62,000 nucleotides of DNA, taken from positions 432,501 to 494,500 of the forward strand of contig NC_087075.1 in the NCBI RefSeq assembly GCF_026151205.1, in the 5' to 3' direction. The stretch comes from Bolinopsis microptera (lineage: Eukaryota; Ctenophora; Tentaculata; Lobata; Bolinopsidae). Below, one piece after another: positions 48,401 through 51,400 of this stretch. The position numbers and the translations under genes are program-made. The stretch's first letter is position 1; every line of letters begins with the position of its first letter. Under the pieces are notes generated by a model. That model was not told where the DNA came from and ran no database searches. It was given only the letters and a program-made list of their open reading frames with translations.

Positions 48401-51400
48401 CTTTAACTATTTAATAGGCACTAAAGGACAACAGTTGTCACTGGATTCACATTATAGGACTGACGATTTTACCTCCATAAACTTGAGAGCTATTCTGGTG
48501 ATGTAGATGTAGACAACAACAAGTATGTAGAAGTGTCGGAACAGTTTCAGCTGTGATAGCACAAGCGTCGTCTTGTTATCTGACCTCTGAGTAATGAGTA
48601 TGAGATTAGTTGTCAAATTGAATGATGATTATATGTTTATTAAAACATTTTGTATAATTATGTTGTTTTACCCAATCACGTGTAAATCAGTGATCTGCAC
48701 ATTAAACACGTGACCTCAGATGCAGAACACTGTTAAACAGTAAACACGGGCCTGTTAAAACAGTAAACAAGTTCGTTAGGATTATCGCAAAACGCAATCA
48801 TGCAATGTAAGCAGCTGCTAGCTTTTGTACAATGGCTCTGTGAGTTCCATCGTTGATCATTTGTACATAAATTCCAGTCCCAGCAGCTTTAATGAGGTGT
48901 GAACAATGTAAATGTAAATAAATTAAAGCTTGTTTAGGACAACACTTACCTCGGTAGCTTGTTGAAGATGTCTTATTGACCACATCACTGGGAATATAAT
49001 AGCTCCACAACACAGCAAATCTGAGGGGAGTGGAATAAGAATGGGAATATAATAGCTCCACAACACAGCAAATCTGAGGGGAGTGGAATAAGAATGGGAA
49101 TATAATAGCTCCACAACACAGCAAATCTGAGGGGAGTGGAATAAGAATGGGAATATAATAGCTCCACAACACAGCAAATCTGAGGGGAGTGGAATAAGAA
49201 TGGGAATATAATAGCTCCACAACACAGCAAATCTGAGGGGAGTGGAATAAGAATGGGAATATAATAGCTCCACAACACAGCAAATCTGAGGGGAGTGGAA
49301 TAAGAATGGGAATATAATAGCTCCACAACACAGCAAATCTGAGGGGAGTGGAATAAGAATGGGAATATAATAGCTCCACAACACAGCAAATCTGAGGGGA
49401 GTGGAATAAGAATGGGAATATAATAGCTCCACAACACAGCAAATCTGAGGGGAGTGGAATAAGAATGGGAAAATAATAGCTCCACAACACAGCAAATCTG
49501 AGGGGAGTGGAATAAGAATGGGAATATAATAGCTCCACAACACAGCAAATCTGAGGGGAGTGGAATAAGAATGGGAATATAATAGCTCCACAACACAGCA
49601 AATCTGACCAGGGGAGTGGAATAACAATGGGAATATAATAGCTCCACAACACAGCAAATCTGAGGGGAGTGGAATAAGAATGGGAATATGATAGCTCCAC
49701 AACACAGCAAATCTGAGGGGAATGGAATAAGAATGGGAATATAATAGCTCCACAACACAGCAAATCTGAGGGGAATGGAATAAGAATGGGAATATAATAG
49801 CTCCACAACACAGCAAATCTGAGGGGAATGGAATAAGAATGGGAAGGACATTGTGTCGACAAAAGTTGCATAAAATGAAATGAAATATATATTTCCCGCT
49901 CAATTTGATAAATTAAGAATTACCGATAGTTTACTAGGTAAGAAATGAGAGTCTCTACTCACTGTAAAACAAAATACATCATTATTGGACCCTGGTCATT
50001 AGGAAAGTTTGCACGAGATGGACCACGTTTTTCCCAATTTAACTTTAGATATAATCTAAACGTTTATAAATGAGGTTAACCTCTCAATTTAGGTATAGCG
50101 AAAATAGATTAGATGATAGAGTTGTCGTTTTCATCGTAAGATTACGACATACAAATTTCTAAATAGATGTAGTGCTGATTTACTTCATTTTAGTGTTGAA
50201 AATGAGGTTAACCATCACATTTGGTACTGTAAGAATTATCCCAATTATTTACATACGAATTACGATTCTTACTTTGTTATGTACCACAATATCGCAGTGA
50301 GGTATCTATTTGTATTCCAGTGCCTCAAATATGATCATGTGACAAAGGTGATTTCAACTGACCATATTTAAGTAGAAGAGTTCACCCGCAAATGGCTACA
50401 AAATGAGGTTAACCTCTCATTTGTTGAATATCAGGCCAGTCAATCACATTTTAACCTCAAAAACGTAATCGTTACACTGGACAAATGTTTTATTACATGT
50501 ATAAAGGTATAACAATGTATTGATAAACCAATCCCAGTGTAATATGGACTATGGTCTATAGCGAGGTTAACAATCATATTTTTACTACTACTACAAGATA
50601 TCATGATATTTAACCTCATTTTTAGACAAATTTTGGTTTATGATATTGATTTTCCCGACATAAAGTATCTCAATAAACATCTTCTCACCTTAAAGCAAAA
50701 ATTATAAGGAGACGCTACTAAATACGGAAAACAATGCAAAATTTGAGATTTTGACAGTGGAATAAAAACACTTTAAAACTCGTTTTACGGGAAATGGCTA
50801 TTTTCCGTAGAAAGCTCAACTTTTGGAAAAGACTGGCCACACCCAGGACCTGAAACTTGGCACAGGTGTTCCTTAGACTGTTTCACAAAATTCTATTGTT
50901 CAGAATTTAGATATTTGCCTCTTATTTTACCATTTACACGTTACACTTACTCTATGGGCCAAACTCTTCTTGATTATACAGATTCTGAAAAAGATTTAGG
51001 CATAATCATGACGTCTAATCTAAATTTTAATAGCCAGGCCGATGCTCTATATGGTAAAGCTAACCAAAAATTTGGCATGCTTAAGAGAAATTGTCATTTT
51101 ATTAATGATCTGAACAAGAGAAGAGTCTTGTATCTTACTCTTGTACGCTCAATATTCGAACACTGTCCCATCATTTGGCGACCAGCGTCCAGTAGCACTA
51201 TCAATAGGCTTAAAGGATTGCAGAAAAGGGCCCTCAAATGGATTCGTAATGATTACGGTGTAAGCTATAGTGTAGAGGAAATCTATAATGCCCATTGTAA
51301 ACAGTTAAATATTCTGCCCCTAAAGTACAGGTTTGATTACCATGATCTCAAGTTCTTTCATTCCCTAGTGCATCAATACCACCCATGCACCACTCTGCCT

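Follow-up and report, generated by a model that had tools for sequence, protein, structure and literature searches.

A 53-bp minisatellite with sixteen splice acceptors at one exon of a GPR107-like gene, probably a tolerated 'mirage'

The 53-bp minisatellite found on the minus strand at 48989-49845 of the window (the whole 62,000-nucleotide stretch of DNA analyzed here) is probably a high-copy 'mirage' minisatellite, in which the acceptor nearest the donor would be spliced while the remainder of the array would stay intronic, tolerated by the GPR107-like gene that carries it. As set out in PMC3087553, a mirage minisatellite is a tandem unit lying across an intron/exon boundary, with its splice signals repeated and the authentic boundary kept; the same text credits the term to Canestro et al. 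2002, for amphioxus Adh3. Both structural features are present here: the unit runs across the intron-exon boundary, and the acceptor at the 3′ end of the array (acceptor 16) leads to an exon and its donor. Judged by analogy with these examples, intron/exon boundaries repeated in tandem are already described, and the array would be a further case. That the array might be simply tolerated was one of two options in the original prediction for this DNA, and it is retained; repeated intron/exon boundaries form a described class.

The host gene belongs to the GOST seven-transmembrane family (PF06814), as had been anticipated. With acceptor 16 in use, the joined protein matches the GOST_TM profile at 117 bits, against a cut-off of 25.2, in one stretch that places 242 residues (50-291) on 242 profile positions (1-242 of 246); the wholeness of this match supports the earlier view that the proximal acceptor is authentic. 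The name GPR107, as opposed to GPR108 or some other family member, is presumptive and taken from the label in the original prediction; against the PDB, the joined protein returned a weak match to TMEM87A (E 0.00018). Nine placed exons, from 55605-55715 to 45323-45468 (Table 1), join into a single open frame that encodes 332 residues up to its stop codon. This joined protein is partial, its N-terminal part lying outside the assembled exons. The exon preceding the array ends in phase 1 at 52493, and the junction G|AT completes an Asp codon, in agreement with the original prediction. The array junction falls at residue 197, within the hydrophobic segment 187-216, which is the fifth of seven by eye and agrees with the predicted TM5 site; the listing of hydrophobic segments has ten rows, as compared with seven segments by eye, because some segments are split.

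Table 1. Positions of the array, its flanking microhomology, the neighboring TAAC-rich tract, and the placed coding exons, in window coordinates
Feature	Position	Strand	Remarks
Coding exon, upstream	55605..55715	-	Boundaries placed solely from reading frame and splice consensus
Coding exon, upstream	55211..55345	-	Joined open frame
Coding exon, upstream	54862..54980	-	Joined open frame
Coding exon, upstream	53370..53502	-	Joined open frame
Coding exon preceding the array, translation ...ILIFV	52493..52583	-	Ends in phase 1
TTCCCA microhomology, distal copy	49840..49845	-	At the intronic end of the array; unit 1 has the same 27-nt intronic suffix
53-bp minisatellite	48989..49845	-	16.1 copies; acceptor in each unit
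Single 56-bp unit, ending in acceptor 5	49604..49659	-	Without CTTAT motif (GTTAT)
Authentic 71-nt exon after acceptor 16 ("exon 10" of the original prediction)	48950..49020	-	Phase 1 in, phase 0 out
TTCCCA microhomology, proximal copy	48989..48994	-	Inside the exon, which has 32 bases in common with the unit
Coding exon following the 71-nt exon	48473..48586	-	Joined open frame
TAAC-rich tract, CTAAC on the sense strand of the gene	45661..48289	-	TRF
Coding exon, translation ...FFLIT	45571..45649	-	Joined open frame
Last coding exon, with stop codon	45323..45468	-	Joined open frame

Acceptors were numbered 5′ to 3′ on the sense strand, from 1 on the intron side (distal) to 16 nearest the donor. 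The exon bases directly after the 16 acceptors run from 49818 (acceptor 1) to 49020 (acceptor 16), and TRF gives 98% matches among the copies, so that the reported near-identity of 16 acceptors stands. Between the acceptors lie 15 complete units, 14 of 53 bases and one of 56; the earlier count of 15 units of 53 bases and one of 56 is correct if the edge copy is included. Each 53-bp unit consists of 27 intronic and 26 exon bases, and contains a branch-point-like CTTAT motif, a pyrimidine tract, the acceptor, and the first 26 unique exon bases; 32 bases, rather than the 31 given before, are shared with the exon, six of them microhomology. The intronic ending described as common to all units does not extend to the 56-base unit, which terminates with CCCCTGGTCAG in place of CCCCTCAG and carries GTTAT in place of CTTAT (C>G).

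Ten of the 15 complete units are identical, including eight consecutive copies (units 8-15); T44 occurs in two units, at the distal edge of the array, and the unique variants are T23C, A26T, and the 56-mer with C>G. This distribution of identity suggests a recent local expansion, and the number of copies is probably unstable. A 16-copy array at this identity cannot reasonably be put down to chance. The locus holding the array (L001) contains 15 exact matches to a degenerate 37-mer, and a search of the genome (264.65 Mb, 232 contigs) with the array sequence returned at least eight matches, all at the array itself; the latter count is a lower bound, and searches of this type skip very common words. 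An assembly error, whereby the array would be real with a count other than 16 or would be an artifact altogether, seems very unlikely: although the run of eight identical units makes a miscount possible, variant units stand at distinct places, the contig is 16.3 Mb long, and the window contains no N. Common long reads also exceed the 857 bp of the array.

The CTTAT motif, with its A at -16, is present at 15 of the 16 array acceptors and absent at acceptor 5. Pyrimidines fill 17 of the 20 positions from -23 to -4 at the same 15 acceptors (15/20 at acceptor 5); the corresponding figure for six other acceptors in the GPR107-like gene is 10-14. None of the 50 GT dinucleotides on the sense strand of the array lies in a GTRAGT or GTRNGT motif; the donor of the authentic 71-nt exon, at 48949, is GTAAGT. 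Since no unit contains a consensus 5′ splice site, the 16 acceptors compete for this one donor. Competition of several acceptors for one donor is also a property of NAGNAG and other tandem acceptors, which lie a few bases apart; NAGNAG acceptors are not minisatellites, unlike the 53-bp array. By exon definition, acceptor 16, as the nearest, would pair with the donor, and the other 15 copies would stay intronic, in which case the array would be nearly neutral to the gene. An RNA structure hiding the acceptors was considered and rejected, as the fold of three units plus the exon was no better than that of shuffles (z = -0.07).

Several observations count against the mirage reading. The decoy acceptors look strong, and with such pyrimidine-rich tracts leakage would be expected. 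Acceptors 15 to 13 would give exons of 124, 177, and 230 nt; lengths of this order are unremarkable, and exon definition is thus not bound to select acceptor 16 alone. Additionally, at acceptor 1 the AG-free lead measures 78 nt, longer than at any of the rest (33-36), a second branch-point-like motif lies at -53, and 266 codons follow in frame. These properties would suit first-come use of the distal site, with acceptor 1 as the main site and either a receptor longer by 266 residues or a dying gene as the outcome. We regard this as extremely improbable, however, given that the protein lacking the 266-residue insert already matches the family profile as one whole and that the nine placed exons retain one open frame to the stop.

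The predicted consequences differ by acceptor. Use of acceptor 16 alone gives a protein with neither insert nor frameshift. Acceptors 1, 4, 7, 10, and 13 are in frame and would add 266, 213, 159, 106, and 53 residues, respectively, which confirms the predicted step of 53 residues for every three units. The remaining 10 of the 15 decoys shift the frame, again as foreseen: entry at acceptors 3, 6, 9, 12, or 15 leads to a stop within the authentic 71-nt exon, and entry at acceptors 2, 5, 8, 11, or 14 to a stop in the next exon, with these stops 231 or 185 nt ahead of the last exon junction. The array itself is open in all three sense frames, so the original prediction of stop-free frames is borne out inside it; it does not carry over to the sequence beyond, where two of the three frames close in one or the other of these exons. 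By the usual rule, stops so far before the last exon junction predict nonsense-mediated decay, though the host may differ.

Were the decoys really used, the array could act as an unproductive-splicing dial, with 10 of the 15 decoys leading to decay and unit number setting how much productive mRNA is made. Both the richness of the decoys in pyrimidines and the placement of the frameshift stops are in keeping with such a dial; however, published mirages are reported with regular mRNA in the two sources (PMC3087553; lancelet PGBD5 paper), and we consider the dial unlikely. It is highly unlikely that the array serves as a copy-number splicing rheostat, in which a unit number varied by slippage from one individual or cell to another would set the share of transcripts that are decayed or that carry 53 residues per three units.

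The other option in the original prediction, a tunable protein switch in which acceptors 1, 4, 7, 10, and 13 would produce receptors with 53-266 extra TM5 residues, fares poorly and is scarcely credible, although all five acceptors are in frame and open. The insert would enter inside the hydrophobic segment, and the one insert scanned, the 53 residues from acceptor 13, splits the GOST_TM match into two stretches and lowers it from 117 to 106.5 bits; 10 of the 15 decoys, moreover, lead to stops before the last exon junction. Open frames are also common among neighboring arrays. A control set was drawn from the 282 kb around the window (2500 bases N; GC 37%), comprising 31 non-overlapping arrays with units of 18-120 and at least 2.5 copies. 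The consensus unit is not divisible by three in 19 of these, and in nine of the 19, including the array under study (eight of the 18 others), the unit has no stop in any frame of one strand; control arrays were scored on both strands and the studied array on the sense strand only. In favor of the frame argument, all frames were open in only 10.3% of mononucleotide and 2.4% of dinucleotide shuffles of the unit (5000 trials each), as they were in 224 of 6662 overlapping 53-mers from four stretches of the gene taken as intronic. Because consensus units are open in so many other arrays, the frame argument carries little weight, and open frames were set aside as a sign of coding, contrary to the emphasis placed on them originally. 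As to a second mirage in the neighborhood, an acceptor-like site occurs in three of the 31 arrays, again including this one.

The array ends bear on its possible origin. The shared intronic suffix of 27 and the shared exon prefix of 32 bases sum to 53 + 6, and the excess of six is TTCCCA, which stands at both ends of the array; the single-copy ancestor would therefore have had TTCCCA twice, 53 bases apart. This arrangement suggests birth by slippage or microhomology-mediated duplication. A duplication between the two motifs, one intronic and one exonic, would have produced the first repeat, and slippage or unequal exchange would then have allowed growth to 16 acceptors. Such a duplication takes the acceptor with it, so that the 3′ end would always retain an intact module of acceptor, exon, and donor.

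Other repeats and features occur nearby. The TAAC-rich tract contains 182 CTAAC and 316 yTnAy motifs in 2629 bases, CTAAC being a branch-point consensus; it is interrupted near 47289-46800 by about 0.5 kb of non-repeat, TAA-poor sequence, and 11 nt separate it from the exon starting at 45649; no AG occurs in the 716 nt upstream of the acceptor of that exon. Runs of (GTTA)5 or longer number 14 in the 282 kb, and the 11 of these 14 among those listed all lie in the tract; no (TAAC)5 was found on the plus strand of the same 282 kb. A 28-bp repeat of 3.2 copies (45263-45354) covers the last codons and the stop codon of the GPR107-like gene. The presence of three repeats at boundaries of this gene may reflect chance or survivorship, in that the repeats to survive would be those with an intact copy left at the edge. 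Further along, a 47-bp, 17-copy array (43482-44302) has a consensus unit with an acceptor-like site and no stop in any of the three plus-strand frames; across the full array, a single stop interrupts one of the three frames. At 38516-38765, a 20-bp unit is repeated 12.5 times at 100% identity. In the intron before the array, a plus-strand open frame of 303 codons (50777-51688) presumably resembles the end of a LINE reverse transcriptase. On G000 C4, at 657954-682333 (L026-L028), tandem arrays that share their units follow one another in mirrored order and inverse orientation, a pattern resembling a large inverted repeat. Rfam at gathering scores gave no match in the window or in 14 of 22 neighboring loci, and ARAGORN identified no tRNA in the window. 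At the starts of contigs C4 and C1, no telomeric repeat was seen within the first 900 bases.

The closest parallels to the proposed mirage are those of amphioxus (Adh3, BflGb6, BflGb9), for which PMC3087553 describes units that each span an intron/exon boundary, regular mRNA, and a length that is unstable among haplotypes or within somatic tissue. In the same material, the BflGb6 mirage has 6 and 3 units in two haplotypes, as compared with 16 acceptors here, and this far smaller size may itself count against the comparison. Units are 150-160 and 157 bp in the globin mirages and 10-72 bp in Adh3, vs. 53 bp here, and copies in BflGb6 are 81-100% identical, vs. 98% TRF matches. The amphioxus mirages also sit in genes (Adh3, globins) other than the GPR107-like one. 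The lancelet PGBD5 paper states that no aberrant mRNAs are generated by the Adh and TnC mirages; the 60-bp and 108-bp repeats that it describes likewise coincide with splice sites of a conserved gene or extend across them, and their copy number varies between two assemblies. They differ in having imperfect copies and only 2 or 7 and 3 or 6 units.

According to the excerpted text of PMC3087553, mirages have so far been found in cephalochordates; if the present host is not a cephalochordate, they would not be peculiar to amphioxus. With 264.65 Mb and a GC content of 37%, the present genome is unlikely to be that of a Branchiostoma, amphioxus genomes being larger. When a duplication spans a boundary, one intact, working copy stays at its end; such an array could therefore probably grow where a purely coding one could not, a form of survivorship. 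With 16 near-identical acceptors facing one donor, the locus constitutes a natural competition assay for the choice of 3′ splice site by position: junction counts in ordinary RNA would measure the position effect directly, with two of the three frames serving as reporters of decay.
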